Below are positions 814-41,199 of a stretch of 41,215 nucleotides of DNA, piece by piece; positions within the stretch are counted from its first letter, which is position 1, and each line of letters opens with the position of its first letter. The notes under the pieces were generated by a model, which was not told the DNA's origin, made no database searches, and saw only the letters and a list, made by a program, of their open reading frames with translations. The stretch is from Treponema sp. UBA3813 (GTDB lineage Bacteria; Spirochaetota; Spirochaetia; Treponematales; Treponemataceae). The stretch is from positions 1 through 41,215 of the forward strand of contig DFEB01000043.1 in assembly GCA_002368605.1 (NCBI GenBank), read 5' to 3'. The position numbers and the translations under genes are program-made.

Positions 814-1104
814 TTATGCCTCTTTGTCGTTGAGTTTGACAAAAAGCGATTTGAGCAAATTGTTGTTCAATCGGAACTGTGTGTTGATTTCGACGATTTT
901 TGCAGGATTTGCCTTTACTGTGAAAAGAACGAACTTACCGCGCTTGATTTTTTTGATTTCATACGCGAGATCACGTTCTCCGTAAGACTCTTCTTTTTCG
1001 ATTGTTGCACCGAACTGTGCGAGAACGGCCTTTACCTTTTCTGTGCCGTCTTTGAACTTTTCATCCTCGATAGGATAGATAGTCATGAGTTCATACTTTT
1101 TCAT
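814..1104 (-). CDS. rpsF: 30S ribosomal protein bS6
   Basis: Small ribosomal subunit protein, partner of bS18. The 96-residue product shows the bS6 pattern: MKKYELMTIYPIEDEKF at the start, a central ESYGERDLAYEIKKIKRGKF, then RLNNNLLKSLFVKL at the end. A strong RBS (AAGGAGA) is placed 10-12 nt before the ATG. It is the first gene of the rpsF-ssb-rpsR operon, about 57 nt downstream of the predicted transcription start. The leader could carry an S6:S18-binding autoregulatory element, as known in other bacteria, but I cannot demonstrate one from the sequence. Confidence 0.97.
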   Translation of the reverse strand: MKKYELMTIYPIEDEKFKDGTEKVKAVLAQFGATIEKEESYGERDLAYEIKKIKRGKFVLFTVKANPAKIVEINTQFRLNNNLLKSLFVKLNDKEA

Positions 1105-26281: not shown

Positions 26282-27171
26282 CTAACATAATTTCTTTATT
26301 TCGTCAGAAAAAAATATCTCCGGCCTCCATCCTGTATCAATTACTAACTCTCTTATATCAGAGACCATATACATAGGTTGGTGTGGGTAATATTCTTTTT
26401 TCCCGAAATCTATTTGCAACTCAAGATTTAACAAATCTCTTAGCATTATAATGTATTCCGACAATTTTTGTCCATTACCGCTACCGAGCGGGTAGAATTT
26501 TCCGTCAACTCCTTTCTCAGATACAGCAAGGAATGCCCGAGCCGCATCATCGCAGTTCAGATAATCCCAAATCTGCTCACATTTTGTGAGTTCCGGACTT
26601 CTGCCGTTTTTCAGCTCACGAATGCAATAAAAAATCAGTGTATTCTCACCGTCATTCTTTCCGTATACGCTCAGAATTCGCATCCAGTTGAAGCGAATTC
26701 CAAGTTGCTTGCAAAGAAGCGAAGAAAGTTTTCCTGCCGTATACTTTGCGATTCAGTACCCGCTTTCGGGATTCACTGGAAGATTCGTTGTGAGCGGAAC
26801 GGACTGAATGCCATACTCAGTTTGGCTTCCAGCCCCAACAAAGACAGTGCACCCACATCGTTTTGCAAGGCGAACAGCATCAAGGGTGTACTCAACATTT
26901 TTGAGTTGACAATCTACATCATCTCGTCCACCAACAGAAGTTTTGTACCATGCGAGGTGCAGGAATATGTCGTATTTTTTTTAAGTTCAAGATTCTTGTA
27001 TTCAGAAATATCCGCATCAATGATATGAACGCGAGAGTCCTGCGGAATATTTTTTATGCGAGAAGAATTTTTTCTGACGATACAGGTTATGTCGTAATCC
27101 TGTTTTAATGCCTCGTGCACGATTGCAGAACCAATCATGCCTGTGGCACCTGTAAGAATAAGTTTTTTCAT
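26282..27171 (-). pseudogene. NAD-dependent epimerase, inactivated paralogue of the 32.2-kb gene
   Basis: Conceptual translation is a near copy of the intact epimerase at 32216-33133. The N-terminal piece (MKKLILTGATGMIGSAIV to residue about 64) breaks at an A8 run on the coding strand (26975-26982); A9 would restore the frame and the three residues between L and Y seen in the paralogue. Further on, a TGA replaces the Gly of the GYGIAK motif (GGG TAC TGA, near 26757), and the rest (GIRFNWMRILSVYGKNDGE to FFSDEIKKLC) is open. Two independent lesions mean it is dead, not switchable. The TGA falls beside the catalytic YxxxK. Confidence 0.85.
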
Positions 27172-27225: not shown

Positions 27226-28059
27226 TTACTCTAATTCGCTCAGCAGTCCGAGAAGATATTCCCACCACAACGGTGAAATAAAATTCTTCGTGAAGCTTTC
27301 TGGAAAAAGAAATCTCTTCATTTCGTTTAGGAAAGCTTCTTGTTCGGTTTTTATCTGCTCAATCCGATTTTGAAACTTCTCTTTGTAGTCAGAAAGTGAG
27401 ATTTTTCTGTCGGCGAGTTTTTGTTCAAGCAGATTTTCATTTTTCTCAATGTTTTTTCTCTTTAGCCAGAAAATATCCCATAAATCGCGATTCTTTACAC
27501 GGTTAGGTCTGTTCACAAAAGCAATCAATTTATCACAAAGGATTTCTTCCATACTCTCTGCATACAAAAGCAGGTCATCCGTTCCCAAATTAATACCATA
27601 ATAGTTGTTTGGAATACGAATTTTTCTGTCGTGGGAAGGAAGGTGGCAAATGTCAATGTTAATCTTTTGCGATGGAAAATCAGGTTTTTCGGGCTTCGTA
27701 ATCAGTTTGATTTTCCATGTATCGGTGTTTCCTTCTTCTTTTTTTGGCTCAGTTACTGTTACAGGAAGGTTATATTTTTTATTAAATTCAGCACAAAGGA
27801 CACCTCCCAACTTGGAAAGAGAATCTTTCGAAAAATCAAAATCGCTTGAAAAATCCAAATCTTCGCTCAATCTTTCTGAGCCATAGCACATTCTAAGGCA
27901 AGTTCCGCCTATGAAAGTGAGTTTGGAAAGAAAATTATTCTCGTTCATTATCCGCAAGATGTCGTGATGCAAAAGTTCTTTTTCAACAACGGTTTGTAAA
28001 ACTATAAGATTAGAATTTTGTTCAAGAACTTTTGAAACAAGTATGTCAAATTCATTCAT
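27226..28059 (-). CDS. AbiEii-type nucleotidyltransferase toxin (module 1)
   Basis: Toxin of an AbiE-class toxin-antitoxin pair. 277 residues with the diagnostic nucleotidyltransferase motif FIGGTCLRMCYGSERLSEDL (GG-x-x-x-R ... R-x-S-x-D-x-D, near residues 50-70), a conserved second acidic site around INIDICHL, and EEILCDKLIAF with its conserved Lys. Related toxins bind GTP (AbiEii) or add pyrimidines to tRNA acceptor stems (MenT). It overlaps the antitoxin gene by 8 nt. Residue-level motifs look intact. Confidence 0.88.
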   Translation of the reverse strand: MNEFDILVSKVLEQNSNLIVLQTVVEKELLHHDILRIMNENNFLSKLTFIGGTCLRMCYGSERLSEDLDFSSDFDFSKDSLSKLGGVLCAEFNKKYNLPVTVTEPKKEEGNTDTWKIKLITKPEKPDFPSQKINIDICHLPSHDRKIRIPNNYYGINLGTDDLLLYAESMEEILCDKLIAFVNRPNRVKNRDLWDIFWLKRKNIEKNENLLEQKLADRKISLSDYKEKFQNRIEQIKTEQEAFLNEMKRFLFPESFTKNFISPLWWEYLLGLLSELE

Positions 28060-28609
28060 ACGAAAGCTCCTTTTTTGCTTCGTTGCTAATCAATTCAATT
28101 GTAGTTCGCTTAGCATCTATCATATCCTTGTAGGCTTGAACAGGTTTAGCTTTGAGCATTTTAGATTTAGTGTCCAAAAAAAGATTTTTTGAGATCCTTT
28201 CAATTTTTTTTGCAGTATGTACAAATTCAATCGTACCGAATTTTCCACAGTCTATAATTCCGGAGCGCCCGCTGGTCATAACGGTAAGATAAGAAATCAT
28301 CTGTTGTGAAATATAGGAAGTTTCGCAAAGAACAGTTTCCAAACTGATGTAATTAAAACAATCAGAGCGTAATTTTGCCGCCACATGATAAAGAACATTA
28401 GGTTTTCCAAAATTTGCAAAATCAAATATATAGACTCCCTTGCAAACACGCTCCAAAATTTCTTTTGAACACGCCCTTGAAAGAATCATATTTAGATTTG
28501 AATCCGTAATATTCGGAAATATGTTTCTTAAATCGTACTTTGAATAAATAAAATGCTCCGGGGAGGAAAGATTACGCAAAGTCTTTTCAAATTGGATTAT
28601 TGGCTGCAT
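28052..28609 (-). CDS. AbiEi-type antitoxin / transcription regulator (module 1)
   Basis: 185-residue protein encoded first in module 1. A winged-helix-like N-terminus (about 20-80: SKYDLRNIFPNI, then ILERVCKGVYIFD) is followed by a domain with NYISLETVLCETSYISQQMI, which is the familiar antitoxin segment of this family, and FGTIEFVHTAKKIERI. AbiEi proteins are known to bind inverted repeats in their own promoter and repress it. The perfect inverted repeat at 28641-28660 over the -35 box fits that behaviour. Overlap with the toxin gene supports coupled translation. Confidence 0.82.
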   Translation of the reverse strand: MQPIIQFEKTLRNLSSPEHFIYSKYDLRNIFPNITDSNLNMILSRACSKEILERVCKGVYIFDFANFGKPNVLYHVAAKLRSDCFNYISLETVLCETSYISQQMISYLTVMTSGRSGIIDCGKFGTIEFVHTAKKIERISKNLFLDTKSKMLKAKPVQAYKDMIDAKRTTIELISNEAKKELSYE

Positions 28610-28618
28610 ACTTCACAA

Positions 28619-28660
28619 ATCATAACATATACTGTTATAATCTGTAAAGTATATTACAGA
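28619..28660 (-). promoter_or_regulatory. Module 1 promoter with palindromic operator
   Basis: On the minus strand TTTACA (28643-28648) and TATGAT (28619-28624) are 18 nt apart, 9 nt before ATG 28609. The -35 box lies in a perfect inverted repeat TCTGTAA-N6-TTACAGA (28641-28660). This geometry suits autorepression by the AbiEi antitoxin, which is inference. Confidence 0.65.
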
Positions 28661-28670
28661 TTTAAACATA

Positions 28671-28700
28671 AAAATAGAAATATCAAATAACATATATATC
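28671..28700 (-). repeat. AbiE-module flanking repeat, copy B
   Basis: Thirty nucleotides upstream of module 1 that match copy D at 24 of 30 positions, sharing the core GA(T/C)ATTTCTAT on the minus strand. Inverted relative to copies A and C. Confidence 0.55.
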
Positions 28701-28730
28701 AACTGCCCTAGAGCAGGTTGTTTCATTTAT

Positions 28731-28749
28731 TTCGATGACATTTCTATTT
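28731..28749 (+). repeat. AbiE-module flanking repeat, copy C
   Basis: TTCGATGACATTTCTATTT, identical to copy A, located 10 nt beyond the stop of the second toxin gene. Confidence 0.65.
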
Positions 28750-28759
28750 TTTCACTGAA

Positions 28760-29623
28760 TCATTTTAAACTTGCTTTTGTAACTGCACAGAAAAAATCCC
28801 GGCTCCACAAATCAAGTTTGCGTGGGTCCTTGATAAACGGAAGAACATCATTTTTTGCATTATCAAAATCAACTGAACCAAAACGCTCGCAAAGCAAATC
28901 AATCAATTTTGGTAAAGTTAGTTCTTCTTTCGAGTGCCATTTTTCGCTTTGTTCAAGTCGTTTTTGAAGATGGCTCAGATTTACTTTTGTTCCGTGGGAA
29001 AGATACCAAAGGTAATCGTAAAAATCACGACCTTTTACGCGGTTTTTCCAGGAACGGCAAAGGACTGCGTGAATCTTTCCTGCAAAAAGAGAACCTTCAT
29101 CATACAGCTGCACTGCATAAGGAATCGGAAGAAGAGCATACTTTGTTTCAAAAGAAGCTCCGTCCGGGGGATTTGTGTCAATCTCGAACCTGATTTTGAT
29201 TAACTCTTTATCTGAAACACCAAGAATTTTTTCGCTTGTCGGCATGATTTTTAACAGATGGACCATAGTTCCGTCTTTTATGAACGCTGACTGAACATTG
29301 CTTATGGCTGATTTTTCTTTTTTCTCAACGCTAAGCTCAAATCCGTTAGACAAAAGCTCATCAGAAAGATAAGAAAAATAATTATCAATCTGAAAATCAG
29401 AATCTTTTTCTGTAAGAGAAAAGTCCATATCCTCAGAAAAACGATCTAGTCCATAAAAAATTCTTAAGGCGGTTCCCCCATAAAAAGCAGATTTCTTAAA
29501 GAATCCTCCTCTGGAAAGTCCACATAAAGCTACTTCCTGTATCACTTCTTTCAGTGCGTTTTTATATTCCAAAGTATTTTTGCAACCATATTTTTCAAGC
29601 ATCTGCTGGACGGGTGTTGTCAT
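28760..29623 (-). CDS. AbiEii-type nucleotidyltransferase toxin (module 2)
   Basis: 287 residues, the second, divergent toxin. Motif SAFYGGTALRIFYGLDRFSE, followed by DMDFSL near residues 45-70, gives the GGT-x-L-R ... R-x-S-E-D-x-D nucleotidyltransferase core; KIRFEIDTNPP carries a further acidic residue, and SLFAGKIHAVLCR with KGRDFYDYLWYL is the conserved C-terminal helix pair. It overlaps the antitoxin gene by 4 nt (ATGA). Sequence and flanking residues differ from the module 1 toxin, so the two modules are not a recent duplication. Confidence 0.88.
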   Translation of the reverse strand: MTTPVQQMLEKYGCKNTLEYKNALKEVIQEVALCGLSRGGFFKKSAFYGGTALRIFYGLDRFSEDMDFSLTEKDSDFQIDNYFSYLSDELLSNGFELSVEKKEKSAISNVQSAFIKDGTMVHLLKIMPTSEKILGVSDKELIKIRFEIDTNPPDGASFETKYALLPIPYAVQLYDEGSLFAGKIHAVLCRSWKNRVKGRDFYDYLWYLSHGTKVNLSHLQKRLEQSEKWHSKEELTLPKLIDLLCERFGSVDFDNAKNDVLPFIKDPRKLDLWSRDFFCAVTKASLK

Positions 29624-30219
29624 GATTTTCCCCCCATTGTTTTTTGTGCAATTTTTTTCAGAATCTTCAGGTTTGTAGACTTATAAAAATCACACAAATC
29701 AAAGATAAGCGAAAAATCAGCGGAATAAAAATCTTCTTCTACAATCCTAAGATTTTCAAAAAGATATTCTTTTAATTTTTTTTCAGATTCTAAAGGACTT
29801 TGGCGATAAAGTATATCACAAAGGCTTTTCTCTTTTCCTGCAATCAAAAAGGAGCGTTCCCCTTCGTTTATTATATAAACTTCATAAGGAAAAGCCGTTT
29901 TTGGAATATCCCGATAGAGGAATGTTCCAAAACTTGAGTCAAACCTCTTTGATTTGTTCTTACCGAAGGTTGCAGCCGTTATGGATGTAACTTTTTCAGG
30001 AATCCAACCCCAATATGAAAGAGCTGTCTCAAAGGAAATATATGATGGCCCGTAAATCGCAGAAGAAAGTAAAAGAGGTGAAACAGATTTGTCTGTTTCA
30101 TAAAGGCCCTTTACGACTTTTATGATTCGTCCCTGTTTTTCCAAAGAAAGTAATTTGTTTTTAGGAGCTTTGTAGTGATTCTTAAGTTCTGAAACAAGAG
30201 CAAATGCTGTATTTAACAA
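29620..30219 (-). CDS. AbiEi-type antitoxin / transcription regulator (module 2)
   Basis: 199 residues. It starts at TTG 30219, supported by GGAGGA 8 nt upstream. N-terminal winged-helix-like segment (about 8-45: KLLSLEKQGRIIKVVKGLYE), then PSYISFETALSYWGWIPE, the antitoxin signature of AbiEi-like proteins, SITAATFGKNKSKRF and AGKEKSLCDILYRQSP. It is probably the DNA-binding autorepressor of module 2. Its length and motifs fit the family, but sequence identity to the module 1 antitoxin looks low. Confidence 0.83.
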   Translation of the reverse strand: MLNTAFALVSELKNHYKAPKNKLLSLEKQGRIIKVVKGLYETDKSVSPLLLSSAIYGPSYISFETALSYWGWIPEKVTSITAATFGKNKSKRFDSSFGTFLYRDIPKTAFPYEVYIINEGERSFLIAGKEKSLCDILYRQSPLESEKKLKEYLFENLRIVEEDFYSADFSLIFDLCDFYKSTNLKILKKIAQKTMGGKS

Positions 30220-30344: not shown

Positions 30345-31001
30345 TTAGCAGAAATCTGCCAATAATTGCTTCAATTCATTAACGCTATGGACGATTTTTG
30401 TGCATCCACACGCTTTTAATTCTTTTTCCGAGCCAGTTCCCCAAAGAACGCCTATTGCAGGAATATCATTTTCCAATGCCGCTTTTGCATCCGTGTCCAT
30501 GTCGCCTACTCCGACAAATTTTTCATTTGGATAGTCTTTCATGCACAAAGCAAAAAGTTCTGTCTTTGTTTTTCGCTTGTCATCGCTTGATTTCATGTAG
30601 CTGTAAGGAGTCACCACGGAAGAAAAATATTTTTTCCAGCCGAGTTTTTTCAAAATGCGGTTTGTCGCCAAATCGGGTTTATTGGTAACGATGTGATGTA
30701 AAAATCTTGTGTCTGCCAAGATTTCTTCCATGCCATCAAATGGCGGTGTATGGTTAAATCCGCAGTTGTCGTAGTTATTACGAAAGGCTGAAAGAATTTG
30801 CTCTATATTTTCTGCGGATAATTGTAGTCCATACATATATCCTAAAGTTTTATCCAAAGGAGGCCCCGAACGGAAAGGTTCCAATGGTTTTATTTCAGAA
30901 AATCCAGTTTCTTTTATAGACTTAGCCAAAACTGCCTTAATTTCAGGGGCAGAATCAATTAATGTGCCGTCTAAATCCCAAATGATATGTAACTTTTGCA
31001 T
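30345..31001 (-). CDS. HAD-superfamily phosphatase (phosphoglycolate phosphatase-like)
   Basis: Probable small-molecule phosphatase. 218 residues with the HAD motif I IWDLDGTLIDS (nucleophile Asp in DLDGT near residue 9-13), motif II HHIVTNKPDLATN, and motif III/IV KFVGVGDMDTDAKAA with the metal-binding acidic pair. A C1-type helical cap (about 18-85) matches Gph-like enzymes. In a sugar cluster it may dephosphorylate a sugar phosphate intermediate. It follows the methyltransferase by 14 nt and precedes the two toxin-antitoxin modules in the direction of transcription. Confidence 0.88.
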   Translation of the reverse strand: MQKLHIIWDLDGTLIDSAPEIKAVLAKSIKETGFSEIKPLEPFRSGPPLDKTLGYMYGLQLSAENIEQILSAFRNNYDNCGFNHTPPFDGMEEILADTRFLHHIVTNKPDLATNRILKKLGWKKYFSSVVTPYSYMKSSDDKRKTKTELFALCMKDYPNEKFVGVGDMDTDAKAALENDIPAIGVLWGTGSEKELKACGCTKIVHSVNELKQLLADFC

Positions 31002-31015
31002 TTTATAATTATGTA

Positions 31016-32201
31016 CTATACATTAAAGAGCCGTACAATTTCAATGTCAGGCGAATTATTTTTGAGAATCCGCATTAAAGTATTTTGTGCAGTGCATGTT
31101 GTAATTATAATGGTATCGATTATGCCGTTTTTTATATCATCTTTATCAAAAGTGCTAACCTCTACCCCGGCAAACTTAAGCCCATGCTTTCGTTTGTCTG
31201 AGTCATAACATCTGACGATGTTTTTCTTTCCAAGCTTTGTACTTCCAAGAAGTCTTGCTGCAGTATTACCAATTCCCCATACTGCTACTTTTGCAGTTGA
31301 AGGGATTTCATCTATTCTTTTCGAAATATTCTTTAATTCCCTCTCAGACCATTTCATATACTCTTTGAACAAGACTTTACTTGAAAGAACGGGTTCATAT
31401 TTTTTTTGATTGTTTGATTTTTTCCATAAAGTTCTAAGGGATGGATATCCGCTAGGAGCAATATTTCCAATATCAAAAGGAATTTCTGCATTCAAAAGCT
31501 CATAGCCGCAAACAAGCATCAGATTCTGAAGGCTCTCAAAGGTGAACATATTGACATGCTCATCCGTGAACATTCCGTATGGCTCATCTTTCAATTTGTA
31601 ATCAAAAGAAGGAACTTCTATAAAAAAATATTTTTCATTAATTTTAGAACACTGTTTTACAAAATCACAAGGATTTACGATGTGCTCTAGCGTATGCGAA
31701 AGAAATATCATGTCGAATTTCTTTTGAACAGCACTATTCATGTACTCTTCAAAAGTACCAGCAAACATTTCGACACCATAATTTTTCATTGCATTATCGC
31801 AATTCCACTTGCTAGGTTCAACACCTAAAGCATATTTATCTTTATAGAGACTCAAATTTGCACCACTTGCTGCACCTATTTCAAGAATACTTTCGAATAC
31901 TTCATTATTAGCTTTTAATGAATTCTCAATAAAAGATTTTTGCTCAACACACCGATTCATATAAGTTTTTGAAACACTTACTTCCTTGCTATCAAATTCG
32001 TATTTACTAAAGTTTTTATATTGCTCATCTAGTTGTTCTTGAGTCAAAGGATTTTTCACAAATATGAATCCACAATTTTTGCACTGACAAATCTCTTGAG
32101 TATAATCTCCAAGTCCAATTAACTCTTTTAATAAAGAGTTATACCCCCCCCCCGACATTTGTATGGCAAATATTACATTTTTTTATGATATTTTTATCCA
32201 T
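31016..32201 (-). CDS. Zinc-knuckle SAM methyltransferase, frame broken by G10 tract (OFF)
   Basis: The start with a good RBS is ATG 32201 (AAGGAG 10 nt upstream), coding MDKNIIKKCNICHTNV. At 32144-32153 ten G follow codon 16 and the frame ends at once in TAA. With nine G the frame continues to TAA 31016 as a 394-residue protein: an N-terminal CNIC...CQCKNC zinc knuckle (Methyltransf_13-like), a SAM domain (LEIGAASGANLSLY near 105, MIFLSHTLEHI near 165) and a C-terminal Rossmann region KVAVWGIGNTAARLLG. This is the TylC3-type sugar C-methyltransferase layout. Without the frame change only a version lacking the first CxxC, from a poor start at 32158, can be made. Confidence 0.85.
32144..32153 (-). 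repeat. G10 homopolymer at the 5' end of the methyltransferase gene
   Basis: Ten consecutive C on the plus strand (G on the coding strand), after codon 16 of the RBS-supported frame. G9 or G12 would be in frame; G10 gives a stop two codons later. Long G tracts near the 5' end of glycan genes are a known basis of slipped-strand phase variation. Confidence 0.85.
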
Positions 32202-32215
32202 TTTACAGTATCTCC

Positions 32216-33133
32216 TTATTTCATTGTTTTTAATTCTTCTGAAGTGATGATTTTCATTATTCCATCTTTAAATAACATTTCTATTTTCCATCCTGTATCC
32301 GCAGTAAGTTCAGAAATATCCGCCACAAGGTACATCGGTTGGTGTGGATAATAGTCTTTCACTCCAAATTTTGCAGGAATTGATGGAGCTAAATACTTCT
32401 GTATATCTTCTACATATTCACAAAGTTTCCTTCCACAGCCACTTCCAAGAGGGTATATTTTTCCAGCAACTCCATGTTCTGCAACAGCCAGAAAAGCTCT
32501 AGCAGCATCATCACAATGAAGATAATCCCAGATCTGCTCACACTTTGTAAGTTCCGGACTTTTACCAGCTTTAAGTTCACGAATTACATAACTTATTAAA
32601 GTATTTTCACCGTCATTTTGTCCATAAACACTCAAGATTCGCATCCAATTAAATCGTATTCCAATTTGTTTACAAAGCATCCCTGCAAATTTTCCTGCTG
32701 TATATTTAGCAATACCATAACCACTTTCTGGGTTTACCTGCAAATTAGGGGTAAGTGGCACTGTCTGTACACCATATTCTGCCTGACTGCCAGCTCCAAT
32801 AAATACAGAACATCCGCATCGCTTTGCAAGCCTTACAGCATCCAATGTATACTCAACATTTTTAAGCTGGCAATCTACATCATCACGTCCACCCACAGAA
32901 GTTTTATTCCAGGCAAGATGCATAAAAACATCATAAGTATCATCAAGTTCTAAAGTATTGTAATCACTAATATTACAATCAATAATTTTTACCCTCTCAT
33001 CTTTTGGAATATTATTTATACGAGAGGAGTTCTTTCTAACAAGACATGTTATTTCATAATCTTGTTTTAAGGCTTTTCGGATGATAGCAGAGCCAATCAT
33101 TCCTGTAGCACCGGTTATAAGAATCTTTTTCAT
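32216..33133 (-). CDS. NAD-dependent sugar epimerase/dehydratase
   Basis: 305 residues from ATG 33133 (MKKILITGATGMIGSAII); an upstream in-frame TTG would read through a stem-loop and lacks an RBS. Extended SDR with the GATGMIG Rossmann loop, MHLAWNKTSVGGRDD, GAGSQAEYG, and YGIAKYTAGK as the catalytic YxxxK, then NWMRILSVYGQNDGEN. Similar to nucleoside-diphosphate-sugar reductases or epimerases. Directly precedes the methyltransferase, whose RBS overlaps its stop. A degenerate copy exists at 26.3-27.2 kb. Substrate unknown. Confidence 0.87.
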   Translation of the reverse strand: MKKILITGATGMIGSAIIRKALKQDYEITCLVRKNSSRINNIPKDERVKIIDCNISDYNTLELDDTYDVFMHLAWNKTSVGGRDDVDCQLKNVEYTLDAVRLAKRCGCSVFIGAGSQAEYGVQTVPLTPNLQVNPESGYGIAKYTAGKFAGMLCKQIGIRFNWMRILSVYGQNDGENTLISYVIRELKAGKSPELTKCEQIWDYLHCDDAARAFLAVAEHGVAGKIYPLGSGCGRKLCEYVEDIQKYLAPSIPAKFGVKDYYPHQPMYLVADISELTADTGWKIEMLFKDGIMKIITSEELKTMK

Positions 33134-33143
33134 TACTTTTTTC

Positions 33144-33203
33144 CTGATACTGTTCTCTACGGCTGAGACTGTTCTCAAGTCCAGGCGTAGAGAACAGTAT
33201 CAG
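33144..33203. repeat. Perfect 18-bp inverted repeat at the fkbM-epimerase junction
   Basis: CTGATACTGTTCTCTACG (33144-33161) and its exact reverse complement (33186-33203) surround a 24-nt loop that itself contains TGAGA-CTGT-TCTCA. One arm encodes the last residues of the FkbM protein (ADTVLYA). No U-run follows on either strand, so it does not look like a terminator. Confidence 0.85.
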
Positions 33204-34257
33204 CTAATGTATTCGAATGATGCCGAACGGCCATTCTGGCCTCTGGCATCATTCGTTTTAATAAAAGCGGTATAGAATAAAAATCTGTCGAATTATGATA
33301 AATACAAACCGCAACACAAGGTTGATATTTTTTTATTGTTTTTTCAGCGCCAAGCAACATTTTATACTCATAACTTTCAATGTCAGCTTTCAAATAATCA
33401 ATTCTTTCACTTATAACATCGTCCAAAGCAACGATTTTTATGCTTGTTCCTTCTGCAGAACTTCCTTGTATAATTTTCGAGCCAAGCCCATTATTTGCCG
33501 AATATTCTTGAACGACACCTTCCATGGAGATGTCACTTACACCATAAGGTAGAAGTGTAATCTTATTATCTGACAAATTCCATTCTTTTTTTAATCTCTC
33601 TGTTCTGAACTGCATTGCCTTATAATTGTTTTTATCTGGTTCAAAACACATTATTTTATCTACAACGCCATCTTTATTCCAAATATAACGCTCCATGCTG
33701 TCACCAACATAGGCGCCGCAATCTACAAAAACACTACCGATATTCTTGTTTGTGAATTCATTCCAGCAAAAATACTGATCTTTTGTCAGCAAATCACAGT
33801 CTGGATATTCGCCTTTTAATCTGCACCAAAGCATATTCGCATATACATCTTTTGATTTTTGGTCAAAAAGCATATCATAAACCTCAAGAACTTCTTTTGC
33901 ATGATTTTTTAATATTGCCTCTTCCATAAGGCAACTTTCAATATTAAGTTCGGAAAGTTTTTTCCTCATTTCCTTAATAAAGGCTGGCTGAGGTGTATTT
34001 ATAAGAACAAGTACATCCTCCTGTCCAGCCAAGCTTTCAGGGCCCACACAAGGCTTACCAAACATTTCTTTTCCCCAATTTACAGAGTTTGAATTAGTAT
34101 AACCTTTTATCTGATTATAAAAAAATTCACGGCTTAAGCCCTCTTGAAAAAGTTGTGTTGTATTGCCCCCCCCCATTATATACAATGTTTTGTTTTTCAA
34201 ATTAGAAATGTTCTGTTTTAAAAATTTTTCAATATCAGCCCTAGTAAATTGTTTCAT
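33175..34257 (-). CDS. FkbM-family SAM methyltransferase with N-terminal Rossmann domain, G9 tract (ON)
   Basis: 360 residues. The N-terminal part (about 20-125) is Rossmann-like, with YIMGGGNTTQLFQEG. The C-terminal half (about 165-345) is FkbM: VFVDCGAYVGDSMERY (SAM motif), CFEPDKNNYKAM, and the conserved ALDDVISERIDYLKADIESY, followed by YKMLLGA. FkbM enzymes O-methylate sugar or polyketide hydroxyls. Codons 28-30 (MGGG) are encoded by nine G (34166-34174), in frame, so the gene is ON here. ATG overlaps the upstream ThDP gene stop by 4 nt. Confidence 0.87.
   Translation of the reverse strand: MKQFTRADIEKFLKQNISNLKNKTLYIMGGGNTTQLFQEGLSREFFYNQIKGYTNSNSVNWGKEMFGKPCVGPESLAGQEDVLVLINTPQPAFIKEMRKKLSELNIESCLMEEAILKNHAKEVLEVYDMLFDQKSKDVYANMLWCRLKGEYPDCDLLTKDQYFCWNEFTNKNIGSVFVDCGAYVGDSMERYIWNKDGVVDKIMCFEPDKNNYKAMQFRTERLKKEWNLSDNKITLLPYGVSDISMEGVVQEYSANNGLGSKIIQGSSAEGTSIKIVALDDVISERIDYLKADIESYEYKMLLGAEKTIKKYQPCVAVCIYHNSTDFYSIPLLLKRMMPEARMAVRHHSNTLADTVLYAWT
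34166..34174 (-). repeat. G9 homopolymer in the FkbM gene
   Basis: Nine G on the coding strand around codons 28-30; the protein reads Met-Gly-Gly-Gly there. Gain or loss of one G would truncate the 360-residue product within about 30-40 codons. Confidence 0.8.
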
Positions 34258-36047
34258 ATTGCCTCATTTTCTCCAATCATATTTTTATTAAATTCATCAC
34301 GTTCCAAAAGTGGTGACATATCTTCTAGCGGGCGGCTTGCCATTTGTCCGTCTTCTTTCATGTAATTTGTCTGACGCGGAAGTATTTTTTGGCCAATAAA
34401 GACTTTGACGTTACAAACACAAGGTCCGTCGTAAGAAAGAACAGCCTCTATAGTTTTATTTAAATCATTTTCATCAGATAATTCAAAACATTTTATACCA
34501 AAACCTTCTACGACAGATTTCATTTCTGGCATTCCAAGTCCGCTATCTTTAGTGCATCCTGTAAGGCGTTTAAAATTGCCATTCTGGGAATTATAAATCA
34601 TTCCATAACCGTCATTACAAAGTATAAAGATTTTTACAGGAAGATTCAAATATTTCAAAGTTGCAAGCTCCTGTACATTCATCAGAAATCCGCCATCACC
34701 TGTTATGCAAACAGTCCTTCGCTTGTTTCCAGCAATGCAAGAGCCTATGCATGCAGAAAGATCAAATCCCATAGAAGCTAGTCCTTTTGTAAGAAATGCC
34801 CTCTGACCTTTTTTAATTCTAAACGAATACATAGAAATATCAGCGCCTGTACCAGAACTTGTAAACTGAAAAATATCATTAGAAGTCATTTTTCCGGTTA
34901 GGCTATCAACAAGCTTATATGTGTTAATTCCCTGCCCGTCCGGAGTCTGTTCAGAAACAAAAAGTGGATATTTTGCCTTTATATTATGGCAATAGTTCCA
35001 CCATTCAGTTCGCTCTTTGTCTTCGATTTTGTCTTTGTTAGAAAGCATCTTTTGTAAAAAAGATTTTGCATCTGCATGAATTTTGAGATAAGGATGAACG
35101 CTGCATTTATTCATTTCGTTTTTATCTATTTCTACCATAACATGTTTGGCTTTTCGTAAAAAGCTTTCAAAATCATAACCAGTAGAAAGCAGATTAAGAC
35201 GAGTTCCTATTGTCAGCACAAAATCAGCATTCTGCTGGATAAAATTTGCATGTCTGTGGCCAACTGCGCCAGGCCGGCCGAAAAACAATGGATTATCATC
35301 TTCAATTAAGTCTACGCCATTCCACGTTGTCATAACAGGAACATTAAGTTTTTTTATAAGCTCTTCCATTTCTGGAATTGCATTTGCAAGACGGATACCG
35401 TTTCCTAAAACAACCAAAGGTCTTTCTGCTTTATTAAAAAGATCCATTGTTTTTTTCACATCACTTTCTTTACATTCATACAAAGGCATTTTTTTAGTAA
35501 AACGAGGTAATCGTTCTGGCTCAACTTGAGAAGCCTGAATATCAAGAGGAATATCCAACCACACAGGTCCCGGCTTTCCTTCTTTTGCAATTGCAACCGC
35601 TTTATCAAGTTCATAAAGAATATCTTCAGGTTCTTTTATCTGAACAGCATATTTTGTTACAGATTTTACAAGCTCGACAACATTCACTTCCTGAATGCCA
35701 AACTGCCGGATTTTCTGGTTGCGAACTAAATCTGCTCTTTTTGCCTGTCCTGAAATAAAAATGACAGGCGTCGCGTCAAGCCATGCTCCCGCAAGACCTG
35801 TAATAGTATTTGTAGCACCGGGACCGCTTGTTACCACGCATACACCAAAATTACCGCTTATGCGGGCATACGCTTCTGCCGCAATCGCACAGGGCTGCTC
35901 ATGGAGCATACAAATCGGCGTAAGATTTTTATTATGCCCTAGAGAATCATCAAGGTGCATTGCTCCGCCGCCTGGCAGATAAAACACATGCTTTACGCCA
36001 AGTGAGGAAATGTAATCAAAAGCAAAATCTGAAACCTTTACCTTCAT
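34254..36047 (-). CDS. Thiamine-diphosphate enzyme, acetolactate-synthase-like
   Basis: About 597 residues from ATG 36047. Three-domain ThDP fold: catalytic Glu in LHEQPCAIAAEAYARISG, substrate-domain SGPGATNTITGLAGAW, GKPGPVWLDIPLDIQ, a central domain with PLVVLGNGIRLANA, and the ThDP/Mg motif ITGDGGFLMNVQELA continuing to CNDGYG (GDG-x(n)-N). Full-length, unlike phosphonopyruvate decarboxylases. In a sugar cluster a relative of YerE (which adds a two-carbon acetyl branch to a keto sugar) is a reasonable guess; amino-acid biosynthesis is less likely without the small subunit or ilvC nearby. Confidence 0.85.
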   Translation of the reverse strand: MKVKVSDFAFDYISSLGVKHVFYLPGGGAMHLDDSLGHNKNLTPICMLHEQPCAIAAEAYARISGNFGVCVVTSGPGATNTITGLAGAWLDATPVIFISGQAKRADLVRNQKIRQFGIQEVNVVELVKSVTKYAVQIKEPEDILYELDKAVAIAKEGKPGPVWLDIPLDIQASQVEPERLPRFTKKMPLYECKESDVKKTMDLFNKAERPLVVLGNGIRLANAIPEMEELIKKLNVPVMTTWNGVDLIEDDNPLFFGRPGAVGHRHANFIQQNADFVLTIGTRLNLLSTGYDFESFLRKAKHVMVEIDKNEMNKCSVHPYLKIHADAKSFLQKMLSNKDKIEDKERTEWWNYCHNIKAKYPLFVSEQTPDGQGINTYKLVDSLTGKMTSNDIFQFTSSGTGADISMYSFRIKKGQRAFLTKGLASMGFDLSACIGSCIAGNKRRTVCITGDGGFLMNVQELATLKYLNLPVKIFILCNDGYGMIYNSQNGNFKRLTGCTKDSGLGMPEMKSVVEGFGIKCFELSDENDLNKTIEAVLSYDGPCVCNVKVFIGQKILPRQTNYMKEDGQMASRPLEDMSPLLERDEFNKNMIGENEAI

Positions 36048-36061
36048 TTTATTCTCTACCT

Positions 36062-37081
36062 TCAAGACAATATTTCATTTAATGAGTCTTTATTGTAAAC
36101 AAACTCTTTTATATCATTAACTTCAAACATTTTATTAAGAGAAAACATTTCAAAAAAAATTTTATTAGGATAAATAACGATAAGTTTTTCTCCTAGTTTA
36201 TATAATAAATCGCAAAAACCACTTCTAATTGATATGACAGTCTCACATTGAATTGCTATTCCCAAAGCAGTTTCCAGATCTGCATTTAACCAAGAACAAC
36301 TCTTTGATAAATAGTTAATTTCAGAAACAGCATTATACACAACATTAAAACCCTTCTGTTTATAATATTCTGCTATGGTGTTCCAAAAAGTTTTATCTAT
36401 GGCAAGTGTTGTGGCAAGTGTTGCGGACTCTGGAGCCAACAGAACTGTTTTTTTCAACAGTTTTTTTTGCGGTAGAAGAGAATAGTTCAATTTGCGTGAA
36501 AACTTAGTAGAGGAATTTAAATAAAATGTAAATCTTGTACAAGCCAAAAAATCATTTATTTTTTTCGTAGCCCACTCTGCCTTCCTGTTTCTCATATAGT
36601 CCAAATGCGCAATAAAAAAACTTTTTTTAGAGGGTTTTAAACTAATAAGTCCTATATCTCCACAACATTTTTTCCAATTTCCAAAAAAAATATTAAACTC
36701 TGGCATATTAAAAATATCAAAAACACTATTTACTAGCAAATAATTTTCAGGTTGTTCATTCAATAATTTGGGAATAACTGAATGACTTTTTCTAAGAACT
36801 GTAAAGATTCTGACATTATTCTGTTTCTCTATCTCGTCTTTATACATGAAAAATAACATTGTATCCCCTAGCGAAGCTGGTAATAAAGCAATGCAAAAAT
36901 CATTTTCGATTCTATTATCTAAAACATCTGTCAAGGAAACATTTTCATTTGATAAAGTTTTTTCATTTAGGGGAATAAGTTTTTTTAACTCATTTATATA
37001 ATAATTCCTAGCAAACTTGGAGATAATAAAAAATCTTGACAACTTTATCTTCAATTTTAATATAAGTGTTCTCTTGTTCAT
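36062..37081 (-). CDS. Putative GT-B glycosyltransferase (heptosyltransferase-like)
   Basis: 339 residues, no sure family. A basic N-terminus leads to FCIALLPASLGDTMLFFMYK, which resembles the start of GT9 (heptosyltransferase-type) GT-B proteins, followed by a second half with KTVLLAPESATLATTLA, ETALGIAIQCETVISIRSG and FCDLLYKLGEKLIVIYP, the usual donor-site layout. AT-rich (about the lowest GC in the window) like its neighbours. It lies 14 nt before the ThDP gene start and 9 nt after the HAD gene. Function as a polysaccharide glycosyltransferase is inference. Confidence 0.65.
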   Translation of the reverse strand: MNKRTLILKLKIKLSRFFIISKFARNYYINELKKLIPLNEKTLSNENVSLTDVLDNRIENDFCIALLPASLGDTMLFFMYKDEIEKQNNVRIFTVLRKSHSVIPKLLNEQPENYLLVNSVFDIFNMPEFNIFFGNWKKCCGDIGLISLKPSKKSFFIAHLDYMRNRKAEWATKKINDFLACTRFTFYLNSSTKFSRKLNYSLLPQKKLLKKTVLLAPESATLATTLAIDKTFWNTIAEYYKQKGFNVVYNAVSEINYLSKSCSWLNADLETALGIAIQCETVISIRSGFCDLLYKLGEKLIVIYPNKIFFEMFSLNKMFEVNDIKEFVYNKDSLNEILS

Positions 37082-37090
37082 AAAATATTA

Positions 37091-37480
37091 TTAAACCTCT
37101 TTGTTAATTATAAAAGTGGGGACATTAAAAGAATCTCGTTTTGTACAAATTGCATAAGCCATTTTTAAACCGCTAGGTTTATTATCATTTATTATAACTC
37201 TTTCCCCGTATGGGGCTTCATAAATAATTGAATTATAGTGAATATTATGTTGTTTTAAAAAGGATTCCGTTTGTATTGCGTAATCTTTTTTTCTTGATGT
37301 AATAAAGATAATCATATCATTAGGAGAAATAGATTGGAGAAATTCAAGACTTCCTTTAAGAAAAGAATCATGCCCATCTAGTTTATAGCCATTGTGTTTT
37401 AAAATAGTGCCGTCTAAATCCAAAATCCATGTTTTTGGAAGAGTTGAGAATTCAATCGTTTTTTCTAACTTATCTAACAT
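37091..37480 (-). CDS. Small HAD-family phosphatase (capsule-type)
   Basis: 129 residues. Minimal capless HAD domain: WILDLDGTILKHNG (nucleophile Asp), MIIFITSRKKDYA (Ser/Thr motif II), RVIINDNKPSGLKMAYAI (motif IV-like). Comparable small HADs sit in capsule and lipopolysaccharide loci of other bacteria and dephosphorylate sugar phosphates. It overlaps the SIS gene by 11 nt, so the two are likely coupled and may act in sequence (isomerisation, then dephosphorylation). Confidence 0.82.
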   Translation of the reverse strand: MLDKLEKTIEFSTLPKTWILDLDGTILKHNGYKLDGHDSFLKGSLEFLQSISPNDMIIFITSRKKDYAIQTESFLKQHNIHYNSIIYEAPYGERVIINDNKPSGLKMAYAICTKRDSFNVPTFIINKEV

Positions 37481-38069
37481 TTTTCAGTTGCACTCCAATA
37501 TGTCCACCAGGATGATTTTTCTTAAAATCTGAAAGCGTTACTCCGCGTCTATTAGCAATTTCCATTGCCAAACCTTGCAAAACTATAAGGTTGACTGTTG
37601 TTGAGTTATTAGGAATAATATTCCATTTGTCACCTTCATTCTCAAGTTCCAAAGATATTACCCCCCCCCTATAATTATGTATAGCTTTTTCAAGTTTTGA
37701 ATTTTTAGTAAAAGTTAAAAGCCAAATTATACAATTCCGTTTTTCAAGCAAAGTTTCTAGATAAACAGACTCTTCGGTTTCACCAGATTTTGTAAGAATG
37801 ATGACAATATCATCTTCTTTTACCATGCCAATATCACCATGAACTGCACTATTTGTATTCATAAAAACAGCTGGCTGACCGACAGAATTCATCGTACCAA
37901 CAAATTTGTCACAGACTGGAACATTCTTTCCAAGTCCAGACACAATTATTTTATGCCCGCTTTCAATTGCATTCACACACGCTTCGGTAAGAGCGTTGAG
38001 TTTTTCGTAATCTAATGAATTCACGGATGCTGAAATTGTTTTTATTATAGAATCAAAATACTCTTTCAT
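37470..38069 (-). CDS. SIS-domain sugar-phosphate isomerase, KpsF/GutQ-like, G9 tract (ON)
   Basis: 199 residues, a lone SIS domain without CBS domains. IIVSGLGKNVPVCDKFVGT binds phosphosugar; HGDIGMVKEDDIVIILTKSGET is the SIS core; KKNHPGGHIGVQL resembles the arabinose-5-phosphate isomerase HPGGALG motif. Known KpsF/GutQ interconvert ribulose-5-phosphate and arabinose-5-phosphate, feeding Kdo or related sugars. The real substrate is inferred. A G9 tract (37661-37669) spans codons 134-136 (Arg-Gly-Gly), in frame. It overlaps the HAD gene by 11 nt and follows the nucleotidyltransferase-kinase by 20 nt. Confidence 0.85.
   Translation of the reverse strand: MKEYFDSIIKTISASVNSLDYEKLNALTEACVNAIESGHKIIVSGLGKNVPVCDKFVGTMNSVGQPAVFMNTNSAVHGDIGMVKEDDIVIILTKSGETEESVYLETLLEKRNCIIWLLTFTKNSKLEKAIHNYRGGVISLELENEGDKWNIIPNNSTTVNLIVLQGLAMEIANRRGVTLSDFKKNHPGGHIGVQLKNVR
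37661..37669 (-). repeat. G9 homopolymer in the SIS isomerase gene
   Basis: Nine G on the coding strand after TATA, encoding Arg-Gly-Gly-Val. A one-base change would truncate the isomerase in its last third. Confidence 0.8.
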
Positions 38070-38089: not shown

Positions 38090-39589
38090 TTAGCCCAAAA
38101 CCTCCTCTAGATAATAAAGCCCGTTGTAGAACGCGCCGCAGATTGAGTCGTAGTCATGCCATGCGTAGGTGGTGAGCGAAAGCCAGATTATCGCGTGGAG
38201 AGCCTTTATCTGTTTTCTTGAAACCTCATTGCCAAGCAGTTCAAAGAAGGATTCCTCCATGTCTTCCCAGTGGTTCGAGTCGATTTTGAGTTCAACATCG
38301 CGCTCGCGGATGTCAAGACGGAACCGCTTTAAATTGAACTGGTCGTAGTTCCCCACGACAGAGTAGTAGACCTTCGCCCAGTCATAAGCCGTGTCACCGT
38401 ACAGCTCGGTTTTCCCGAAGTAGCCGCGCGGGTCAATCAAAACGGGGCTTCCGTCGGTGCGGAGCATCATGTTTGAAAATGTGCAGTCGCCGTGAATCAA
38501 GCGGAATTCAGATGGGTAAAATGAAGCAACGATTTTTTCAAGCTCCTCCCAGTGGTAGAACACATTGCGGCAAGTCCTGCCGTTCACCGTTACGGTCTTG
38601 TCGTTTGCGAACGGAACAAGATTCCGCACTTTTTCAAGGCGCGCCTTTGTTTTTCCGATGTATGCGTCATCATAGCTTTCTCGGTCGGCAGGGGCAGACT
38701 CCAGCGTCTGCACCGACTTTAGGCAGCCGATTATTTGGGAAAGAATCTGTTTTTTTTCGTCAGAACTGATGGTGGAGTATTCGTAAATGTTCTTGCCGTC
38801 GATTTTTTCCATAGTGAGCGGGTCGAGCGCGTAAATCTTCGGAATGTTTTTGAAATTCTTATCGGCGACCTTTGCGTACCACGCTTTTTCGCGGACGGCA
38901 AGCTTTTTTCCCTGCTCGTCTATTCCTTCTTTTATGATGCGGTCGCCTTGCATTGTCATGCGGTTGAACGGGCGGCATTTTTCCGTTGCAAGCTTTTCAT
39001 ATTCAGAGAGAAGCCCGAATTCGCGCGTCCGTGCAAGCGGAAGCTCCTTAAAGGCGATGTTCTTCCCCGAAAGGTAGCGGACGAATTCCCCTGAGCCGGG
39101 AACATCAAAAATCCGTTTTTTGTCGCTGAAAATGAAATGCCCCGCCACGCCGTGGTTTTCGCTCGGCTCTTCGGCAAAAGCACCGCCCTCGTACTTCCAG
39201 CGGCACTTGAAGCCGCGCGACACGCCGATGTAGTCGGCATTTTCTTTTGGAAGCGCGTAGTCCTCGGGAAGAATCAAATCGCACCAGGTAAGCATGAACG
39301 GCTCGTTTTCTGGAATGAGCGCAAGCGCGTCCGAAAGCCCCGCGCATGTACCGGGCTTTCCCGCACCGTCAACAATTTTGTAGTCTACATCGGCAAATGC
39401 GGCGAGATATTTTTTCAGCACATCGATTTTGTAGTCGCCGATGACGATGAATTTTTTCTCGGGGAACTGGCGGAACAGATGGAAAATCATTGGGAGATTC
39501 TGCACGGGCAAAAGAGCCTTCGGTTTGTTGCGCGTAAGATGCTCAAGGCGAGTCCCTTTTCCGCCCGCCTGCACGATGATAAATTTCAC
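38090..39589 (-). CDS. Nucleotidyltransferase fused to sugar kinase (APH-type)
   Basis: 499 residues. N-terminal nucleotidyltransferase (about 1-230): IIVQAGGKGTRLEHLTRNKP holds the GxGTR loop and LTWCDLILPED the metal-binding site. C-terminal aminoglycoside/choline-kinase-like phosphotransferase (about 240-499): RLIHGDCTFSNMML (catalytic HGD-x-x-x-x-N) and VLIDPRGYFGKTELYGDTAYDWAK (metal Asp in IDPR). The chain could phosphorylate a substrate and then activate it as a nucleotide-diphosphate. GTG start overlaps the aldolase stop (GTGA). Much more GC-rich than 23-38 kb. Confidence 0.85.
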   Translation of the reverse strand: MKFIIVQAGGKGTRLEHLTRNKPKALLPVQNLPMIFHLFRQFPEKKFIVIGDYKIDVLKKYLAAFADVDYKIVDGAGKPGTCAGLSDALALIPENEPFMLTWCDLILPEDYALPKENADYIGVSRGFKCRWKYEGGAFAEEPSENHGVAGHFIFSDKKRIFDVPGSGEFVRYLSGKNIAFKELPLARTREFGLLSEYEKLATEKCRPFNRMTMQGDRIIKEGIDEQGKKLAVREKAWYAKVADKNFKNIPKIYALDPLTMEKIDGKNIYEYSTISSDEKKQILSQIIGCLKSVQTLESAPADRESYDDAYIGKTKARLEKVRNLVPFANDKTVTVNGRTCRNVFYHWEELEKIVASFYPSEFRLIHGDCTFSNMMLRTDGSPVLIDPRGYFGKTELYGDTAYDWAKVYYSVVGNYDQFNLKRFRLDIRERDVELKIDSNHWEDMEESFFELLGNEVSRKQIKALHAIIWLSLTTYAWHDYDSICGAFYNGLYYLEEVLG

Positions 39590-41199
39590 TTTATTGCTCC
39601 TTCAAATATGCTCTCAGTTACAAACTGGATGCTCATCTTTCCTTTTGTAGACAGCAAAAAATCGGTGAACATATTCTCAATCTCTTTGTTCAGTTCGTCC
39701 CATTTTCCGTCAGGGTTCAAAGTCGGAAGAGAAACATCTGCATAGCTCTCATTGTATGCGGTCTTAAAACCGTCAAAGCCTGCGATTGCGACATTCTGGA
39801 CTTCAAGCTTGCTCAAAAGTCGGAGGACACAGATAACGGCATTGTCAAAGTGTTCCCAACCGCGCTTTATGACGCTGTTGAAGTTCACGATAATTTCATC
39901 ATTTTCGCCAGAAGTTTTGATATTTGAAAGAAGGATTTTCTTCAATCCTGCCAGTTTCTTTCCGTAGGCTTCCTTTGCATACTGGTAACGCACGGAATTG
40001 ATAAAGCTGACAAAATCGCACTCATAGTTCTTATGAACTGCATTCACCGCAATGACGACAGGTTTTTCGGATTCTATGAACCTCTGGACTTTCTCCTTCT
40101 CAGAAACAATCGTCTTTCCGGGAGCCAAGAGCAGTATCGTTCTACCTGCGAATTCCTCGCGCAAAGCCTTTAGTGCAAGAGAGTCGTCAATAATCCTGTC
40201 TTGATTCTCCATGTAGCGTTTTTCAAGCAAGTCATAGTCATAAGCCCTTCGTTCTGACTGGGAGAGCGATGCGATGATGTTACTCATATCCTTTGCGTTC
40301 GTGCGGTGGTTTTTCTGTAGGTATGCGATGTTGTTCACATGGCACTGGTACACGCCCGCAATGAAATACGGCGTTGAGTATCCCCACGAGTATTTTTCTT
40401 GAATGCCCGTCATGTACATGTCGATGGCATCAAGGATTTCGTTCATGTCATAGTTCTTGTGATGCTTTCGGTTCAGGTAGTTTGTCATAAGCTCTGTGGT
40501 CGTATTTCCCGCCCCACGTCCCATGCCACATAAAGAAGCATCGGCAATGGCATCGCGCCCCGCTTTTTCTGCAAGCTCCACAAATGTTGAAGACAGCGCA
40601 AAGGCAAGCTGCTGGTTGTTGTGCGCATGGAAACCGATTTTTATGTCTTTTGAAAGTTCCCTGTCAAGAATTGAGAAGATGCGCTCAAGGTCGTCCTCAT
40701 ACATCGCGCCGAAAGTGTCAACGATTGAGACTGCGACAGGTTTCACTTTGTTCATGGCTTTTGCTAGTACAAGCAAATCGTCATCGGAATAGGCAAGCGT
40801 GTTCGCAGCCTGAAAGAATACCTTGTATCCTTTTTTCTTAATCTGCTCCCCGATAGCAATGCCTTCCTCATGCTTGCCGTGCGGAAACACGACGCGGATT
40901 GCGTCAATAGATTTTCCGTTATACTGCGGAAGAACAGAATCGTCATAGCGGTTGTAGTCAATCATCGCAACATAAGTAGCGGAAGATTTCTTCTCTAAAA
41001 GATACGGTTCGATATCTGACGGCACATGGAAATAACTGCTTCCTTCTTCATGCGGGGTGTCTTTGAGCCAGCCACATTCGATGATTTCCGCATTGGCATC
41101 TTGCAAATGTTTAATTATACCTTTTAATGCTGGCTCGCCAAATTCCGAATTATTTACATATGCACCATCACGAAGGGTACAGTCTAAAAGTTGAATCAT
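39586..41199 (-). CDS. DRE-TIM metalloaldolase fused to an unrecognised C-terminal domain
   Basis: 537 residues. The N-terminal TIM barrel (about 1-300) is HMG-CoA-lyase/4-hydroxy-2-oxovalerate-aldolase-like: LLDCTLRDG (metal Asp at residue 6, active Arg-Asp) and GFHAHNNQQLAFA (His-x-His metal site), then GMGRGAGNTTTELM (flexible glycine loop). About 330-537 is an additional Rossmann-like domain (TILLLAPGKTI, VIAVNAVHKNY, VAIAGFDGF) that I cannot name; it faintly recalls MAF/DUF115-like proteins. Likely makes or cleaves a carbon-carbon bond of a sugar precursor. First gene of the visible island; promoter not in the window. Confidence 0.82.
   Translation of the reverse strand: MIQLLDCTLRDGAYVNNSEFGEPALKGIIKHLQDANAEIIECGWLKDTPHEEGSSYFHVPSDIEPYLLEKKSSATYVAMIDYNRYDDSVLPQYNGKSIDAIRVVFPHGKHEEGIAIGEQIKKKGYKVFFQAANTLAYSDDDLLVLAKAMNKVKPVAVSIVDTFGAMYEDDLERIFSILDRELSKDIKIGFHAHNNQQLAFALSSTFVELAEKAGRDAIADASLCGMGRGAGNTTTELMTNYLNRKHHKNYDMNEILDAIDMYMTGIQEKYSWGYSTPYFIAGVYQCHVNNIAYLQKNHRTNAKDMSNIIASLSQSERRAYDYDLLEKRYMENQDRIIDDSLALKALREEFAGRTILLLAPGKTIVSEKEKVQRFIESEKPVVIAVNAVHKNYECDFVSFINSVRYQYAKEAYGKKLAGLKKILLSNIKTSGENDEIIVNFNSVIKRGWEHFDNAVICVLRLLSKLEVQNVAIAGFDGFKTAYNESYADVSLPTLNPDGKWDELNKEIENMFTDFLLSTKGKMSIQFVTESIFEGAIK

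Follow-up and report, generated by a model that had tools for sequence, protein, structure and literature searches.

The question raised by this locus is whether a methyltransferase gene that is divided between two reading frames at a run of ten G is broken, misassembled, or held in one of several alternative states. The gene lies in a window (the whole stretch of DNA that was analysed, 41,215 nucleotides long) from a Treponema genome of 83 contigs and 2.6 Mb that is 88.5% complete; the genus includes Treponema bryantii. Our analysis indicates that the gene is very probably a translational poly-G contingency (phase-variation) locus that was assembled out of frame. The evidence comes from the anatomy of the locus, from its operon, from tract sites in other species, and from the lengths of G runs across the genus.

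A methyltransferase gene divided by a G tract

The gene consists of the following parts.

32212..32217, minus strand: ribosome-binding site AAGGAG for the ATG at 32201 (duplex energy with the 16S tail -8.2 kcal/mol)
32154..32201, minus strand: 5' piece, read from the sequence, with the ATG, 16 codons, and the first zinc knuckle half CNIC
32144..32153, minus strand: G10 tract, read from the sequence, the proposed slippage site
31016..32143, minus strand: 3' piece of 375 codons, with the second knuckle CKNCG, Methyltransf_23, and a C-terminal region that aligns with sugar C-methyltransferases
31016..32158, minus strand: alternative 380-codon open frame from an internal ATG at 32158, without the first knuckle and without a ribosome site

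Inspection of the sequence places the ten G on the coding (minus) strand, with the plus strand reading C10, directly after codon 16 and inside the reading frame near its 5' end. The ATG at 32201 is preceded on the minus strand by the stop codon of an epimerase gene and by AAGGAG. The 16 codons that start there encode MDKNIIKKCNICHTNV, after which the frame continues as Gly-Gly-Gly-Val and closes at a TAA (32141-32139) just past the tract. The 375-codon body is a single open frame, different from that of the 5' piece; its stop ends at 31016, and it carries no other damage. An earlier note on this DNA had described the arrangement in the same terms, and its particulars were borne out: an ATG at 32201 with ribosome-site support, 16 codons with half a zinc knuckle that the G10 shifts into a TAA, 395 codons to 31016 on the loss of one G (stop counted, thus 394 residues), and a second CxxC followed by a SAM domain, the latter matching Pfam Methyltransf_23 at 1.1e-11, above the cut-off. 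By their coordinates, the two knuckles lie 94 nt (about 31 codons) apart, with the tract in between. A CxxC motif is present in 503 of the 42,582 open 16-codon stretches in the six frames of the whole window (1.2%), so that a CNIC upstream of the tract, together with a start and a ribosome site, is unlikely to be accidental.

Identity of the enzyme and its zinc ribbon

Zinc-ribbon sugar C-methyltransferases of the TcaB9/TylC3 type have two CxxC zinc knuckles, a SAM domain, and a C-terminal domain, and they methylate a carbon of a nucleotide sugar. In the window, both knuckles are present but in different frames, the SAM domain is there, and the C-terminal match is weak (Pfam C-methyltransferase C-terminal domain at 0.0077, below the cut-off). 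The likeness to solved enzymes of this type is distant: a search with the lone window protein missed both 3ndi and 4rv9 and matched only 3cc8 (0.0039), whereas a profile built from an alignment of the window protein with seven others matched TcaB9 (3ndi) at 3.4e-11 over the knuckle and methyltransferase regions and D-mycarose 3-C-methyltransferase (4rv9) at 1.2e-13 over the methyltransferase and C-terminal regions (positions 83-374 of 398). The gene is predicted from these comparisons to encode a sugar C-methyltransferase-like enzyme. Structure prediction of the open 380-codon frame, made with four sequences only, was poor (mean pLDDT 44.8). Kinship between the two methyltransferases of the window was also considered and was set aside, as direct comparison found no real similarity.

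Relatives of the enzyme show how the two knuckles are normally arranged. A search of the phylum matched 169 of 392 genomes, and 30 loci from it entered the comparison. We examined 49 loci in all; 46 of them gave matched relatives, 44 of which have two CxxC motifs in one frame, and the other 2 align only to later parts of the protein (from residues 140 and 203). Over the knuckle end the count is therefore 44 of 44, with many of these relatives being close kin of each other. The knuckles are 33-34 residues apart in the six best relatives, close to the 94 nt of the window. Since both knuckles share a frame in every examined relative that covers them, the tract can be said to cut a zinc ribbon.

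This result bears on the idea that the tract switches the N-terminus of the enzyme rather than turning the gene ON and OFF. A 380-codon enzyme without the first knuckle, and with altered or weak activity, would then be made from the ATG at 32158, for instance by re-initiation. That ATG stands just before the tract and, in the assembled G10 state, in frame with the body; the frame from it is open, and the upstream frame closes some 17 nt downstream of it, a distance that may allow re-initiation. Its duplex energy, however, is +0.9 kcal/mol against -8.2 kcal/mol for the ATG at 32201, and the loss of a knuckle that is present in 44 of 44 relatives would probably unfold the zinc ribbon. We consider such N-terminal switching unlikely and favor ON/OFF switching of translation from the ATG at 32201.

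A different kind of simple-sequence repeat occurs in the same enzyme family. Three of the phylum relatives nearest to the methyltransferase, all from one genus that is probably Brachyspira, end in pure tetra- or pentanucleotide arrays (29 copies of AGAGC, 22 of TGTC, and 14 of TGCTC; L205:2569-2713, L201:1300-1386, L202:1235-1303, and L202:2573-2652). A search for literature on Brachyspira phase variation with tandem repeats found none.

The surrounding operon

The neighboring genes and their tracts are as follows.

39586..41199, minus strand: HMGL-like aldolase gene, part of a recurring sugar module
38090..39589, minus strand: nucleotidyltransferase/phosphotransferase gene
37470..38069, minus strand: SIS-domain sugar-phosphate isomerase-like gene
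37661..37669, minus strand: in-frame G9 tract in the SIS gene, near codon 134
34254..36065, minus strand: thiamine-pyrophosphate (TPP) enzyme, acetolactate synthase-like, part of the sugar module
33175..34257, minus strand: FkbM-family methyltransferase (Pfam PF05050, 2.4e-13; TIGR01444, 2.7e-15)
34166..34174, minus strand: in-frame G9 tract of the FkbM gene, translated as Gly-Gly-Gly
32216..33178, minus strand: NAD-dependent epimerase/dehydratase, directly upstream of the divided gene, with relatives in many genomes of the genus
30345..31001, minus strand: HAD phosphatase gene, directly downstream, part of the sugar module

The earlier note had placed in-frame G9 tracts in two neighbors of the divided gene, and these are confirmed in the FkbM and SIS genes. 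A G tract at the SIS site is absent from all three relatives that were aligned. The sugar module of HMGL-like aldolase, TPP enzyme, epimerase, and HAD phosphatase flanks the methyltransferase on both sides; the epimerase and at least one of the other three module genes are found in 12 of the 16 genus loci compared, all 16 having been chosen for a DNA match to the operon. The 80 loci kept for relatives of the epimerase include 15 with a Treponema or Spirochaete label, 8 of which rank among the first 11; some of the 15 are also labelled goat reticulum, cattle omasum, or rumen, and the remaining loci are mostly Clostridia/Lachnospiraceae and Bacteroidales assemblies. Some epimerase relatives elsewhere have a 9-base run of C or G at the 3' end, which is in frame at L110:10890-10898 and splits the frame at L125:1289-1297; the C-terminus of these proteins could be switchable. 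The window also holds a degenerate second copy of the epimerase gene at 26478-27171, with 73% DNA identity to the intact copy, and an open frame at 26282-26683 retains a 3' part of the Epimerase domain. Two neighboring AbiEii-type genes (27226-28059 and 28760-29623), each adjoined by a partner gene without a Pfam match, lie among the glycan genes in the region 27226-30219.

Tract sites and split genes in other species

We compared tract lengths between species, with one genome per species, at the FkbM sites only. The FkbM relative in genome G092, which is 61% identical, has an out-of-frame G8 where the window has its in-frame G9. The N-terminus of this relative matches that of the window in frame 2 (score 55, reached in 0 of 500 shuffles), its body lies in frame 1, and the other frames of the N-terminus score 29 (frame 0, 3 of 500 shuffles) and 23 (frame 1, 37 of 500). 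At a second FkbM-family site the tract is a G11 in frame in G188, a G10 in frame in G204, and a G8 that splits the gene in G073. Overall, there were 20 FkbM matches in other genomes of the genus, and in 8 of them the coding strand of the gene contains a run of 8 or more, against a chance expectation, calculated by hand, of about 0.07 in 22 kb of coding strand (based on 1,583 runs in 261.8 Mb, both strands). Six of these eight tracts are in frame and two, L231 and L241, are counted as split; the mechanical rule used for frame labels takes the longest open frames and gives some wrong labels, and L231, which it had labelled SAME, was counted as split after re-examination. With six of eight FkbM tracts and two of three operon tracts in frame, switching at these sites is to be read as a capacity only. 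One further FkbM relative (L138, about 840-1000, minus strand) owes its disruption to an approximately 60-base tandem duplication, not to a tract, and was set aside.

Genes of other families are split at G tracts as well. In genome G104, two glycan-type aminotransferases of the DegT family are each cut by a G10 into two frames; the two pieces match neighboring stretches of a single Pfam model, 2-64 and 64-359 in one gene and 8-258 and 273-359 in the other. An acyltransferase-3 gene of T. bryantii is split at a G11, located at G015:C9:16251-16261; its upstream piece matches Pfam, and its downstream piece of 154 residues has no match.

The divided methyltransferase itself is rare. A protein search matched its body in 12 of 200 genomes of the genus, full-length only in the window's own and partially in the other 11, so the gene is accessory and its own tract is not comparable across species. 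No close relatives of the body were found in a search of genome contigs, plasmid records gave seven distant matches (24-27% identity), and, among the matches listed from a DNA search of the 200 genomes, other operon genes were covered and none outside the window's genome lay over this gene. The description of a normal, otherwise undamaged gene in the earlier note thus stands for the open 375-codon body; as to normality, a search of the other 199 genomes of the genus found no full-length relative.

An ordinary pseudogene would fit this distribution: a recently acquired methyltransferase could have suffered one random frameshift in the tract, with no selected reversible switching. The gene is accessory, and the genomes searched gave no orthologue that would show purifying selection. 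Nevertheless, the 375 codons are free of other damage, the operon has two more long in-frame tracts, and in other species the corresponding tract sites occur both in frame and out of frame. These observations make an ordinary pseudogene quite unlikely and argue for a contingency locus.

Lengths of G runs in the window genome and the genus

The window genome has 27 G runs of at least 7, 13 of at least 8, and 9 of at least 9. In its short runs the continuation rate is about 0.21 per base, and extrapolation, made on DNA that was selected for its tracts, gives 117, 28, and 6.6 for the three classes; calculation by hand, starting from runs of 4 or more, gives about 69, 14, and 3. The absolute excess of runs of at least 9 is modest (9 versus 3 to 6.6 expected), and runs of at least 7 are scarcer than extrapolated (27 versus 117, or about 69 by hand). 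The strong signal against chance is the heavy tail in the shape of the run lengths and not the absolute number: 9 of the 27 runs of at least 7 reach 9, versus about 1.2 expected at 0.21 per base (P 1.4e-6). Three of the nine runs fall within 5,526 bp, as happened in 237 of 200,000 random placements, a probability that is post hoc because the window was picked for such tracts. The same tail is found in 98 genomes of the genus, which together contain 1,583 runs of 8 or longer; 1,005 of these have a length of 9 or more, a ratio of 0.635 versus about 0.21 expected from the short runs of the window's genome. Runs of at least 9 per genome have a median of 5 and range from 0 to 66, with at least 10 in 34 genomes and none in 6.

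Homopolymers are a common site of length errors, and the metagenome-type assembly may have miscounted the G10, with the true tract in frame in nearly all cells. The 83 contigs and incomplete genome are in line with such an error. It is opposed by the genes that are split at G tracts in other species, including T. bryantii XBD1002, the record of which is not labelled as a metagenome assembly, and by the place of the tract, whatever its exact length, in the genus-wide heavy tail. A miscall is a rather unlikely explanation and, if true, would affect only the OFF state, not the interpretation of the tract as a contingency site. The term "switched OFF" in the earlier note accordingly applies to the assembled sequence; real switching and the length carried by most cells are presumed.

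Tracts are not confined to glycan genes, as their placement in two genomes indicates. In G104, which has about 28 runs, 12 of the 24 examined have flanking open frames that add up to fewer than 110 codons and may lie between genes, and in T. bryantii only one of five runs lies between long open frames. By the mechanical rule, five of the nine runs of at least 9 in the window genome are in frame and four are split, one of the latter (L032) being ambiguous; two of the split runs are in genes that look lipoprotein-like by eye and have downstream pieces without a Pfam match. Other genomes have further tract arrangements. A G15 run is followed 36 bases on by a C17 run at G081:C2:37205-37272, forming a long G/C inverted pair. 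Genome G072 has tracts of C15, C15, and C10 before closely similar open frames (L173, L174, and L179), and two of these three loci share an upstream peptide, which makes them a repeated family with different tract lengths in one genome.

Discussion

The divided methyltransferase gene has a slippage-prone tract in the 5' part of its frame, is intact otherwise, and belongs to a genome with long tracts beyond chance. The proposal that it is a contingency locus is thus supported by its anatomy, by two further tracts in the operon, by homologous sites elsewhere, and by the heavy-tailed distribution of run lengths in the genus. In the mechanism that we propose, slipped-strand mispairing in the G tract would alter its length by single bases. 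At some lengths, ribosomes that start at the ATG at 32201 would read the whole zinc-ribbon SAM methyltransferase, and at others, including the assembled G10, they would stop after 20 codons. The enzyme would decorate a sugar made by the operon through the HMGL aldolase, TPP enzyme, epimerase, HAD phosphatase, and nucleotidyltransferase; the operon suggests that the substrate is a glycan and that it is located at the surface. A population would then be a mix of methylated and unmethylated glycan forms, on top of which the FkbM methyltransferase (G9), and possibly the SIS isomerase (G9), would vary independently. Slippage would occur in cells of this species, and its adaptive role would presumably lie in pressure from the host, grazers, or phages.

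Poly-G switching itself is already known from Campylobacter, Helicobacter, and Treponema pallidum. A study of poly-G variation in T. pallidum reportedly dealt with its effect on the promoter activity of tpr genes. The window resembles that system in its G homopolymers and shares its genus in the broad NCBI sense, but its tract lies inside a glycan-type enzyme gene. In the portions of the PhasomeIt study of Campylobacter available to us (PMC6321876), lengths of 9 and 10 dominate among poly-G/C tracts (53% and 26%), 82% of poly-G tracts in a C. jejuni/C. coli set lie inside reading frames, several SAM-dependent methyltransferases have G runs within 7-13, and three glycines becoming nine Gs are named as one possible origin of a tract. 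As far as those portions go, the likeness extends to poly-G in SAM methyltransferases and to a possible origin from a glycine triplet, which fits the FkbM motif of the window. The window, unlike the Campylobacter cases, comes from another phylum and a presumed commensal, and its length variation is proposed from one assembly. Helicobacter canadensis, in the sections of the report at hand (PMC2823697), has within-gene G9-G13 tracts in methyltransferases that are clustered with other tract-bearing genes; one such methyltransferase was annotated as frame-shifted in the assembly, and read data gave a range of lengths. The clustering of poly-G methyltransferases is similar, but tract lengths came from reads there and come from assembled sequence here. 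Homopolymer counts have been compared in bovine and human treponemes, and the available parts of that comparison (PMC8049484) list, with a minimum length of 7, 9 G tracts and 6 C tracts for T. ruminis, a rumen commensal with the fewest homopolymeric tracts among the treponemes compared. By contrast, the genus studied here spans 0-66 runs of at least 9 per genome, and glycan switch genes are not described in those parts.

What is new here is a poly-G switch candidate in a presumed commensal gut spirochaete, in a genus whose tract sets appear larger than the consulted parts of PMC8049484 suggest. In the literature covered, outside which most subscription journals lie, we found no report of phase-variable glycans in gut treponemes. 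According to the accessible text of a 2025 review (PMC11868660), multi-locus phase variation is apparently restricted to pathogens, which may reflect selection during colonization or a bias in databases. Our results suggest that tract sets are large in some gut Treponema species and lie at least in part inside glycan-type genes. On balance, we lean toward the broader view that a multi-locus poly-G phasome, directed partly at glycan modification, exists in gut and rumen Treponema. In this view, the three tracts of the operon (in two methyltransferases and a sugar isomerase) would slip independently to give up to eight glycan states, FkbM genes would be a recurrent target, and the Gly-Gly-Gly motif of the window's FkbM protein may have seeded its tract. 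If this is true, gut treponemes would offer an anaerobic setting in which to study how a community member hedges its bets with surface sugars, under pressure that may come from phages and protozoan grazing rather than from disease.
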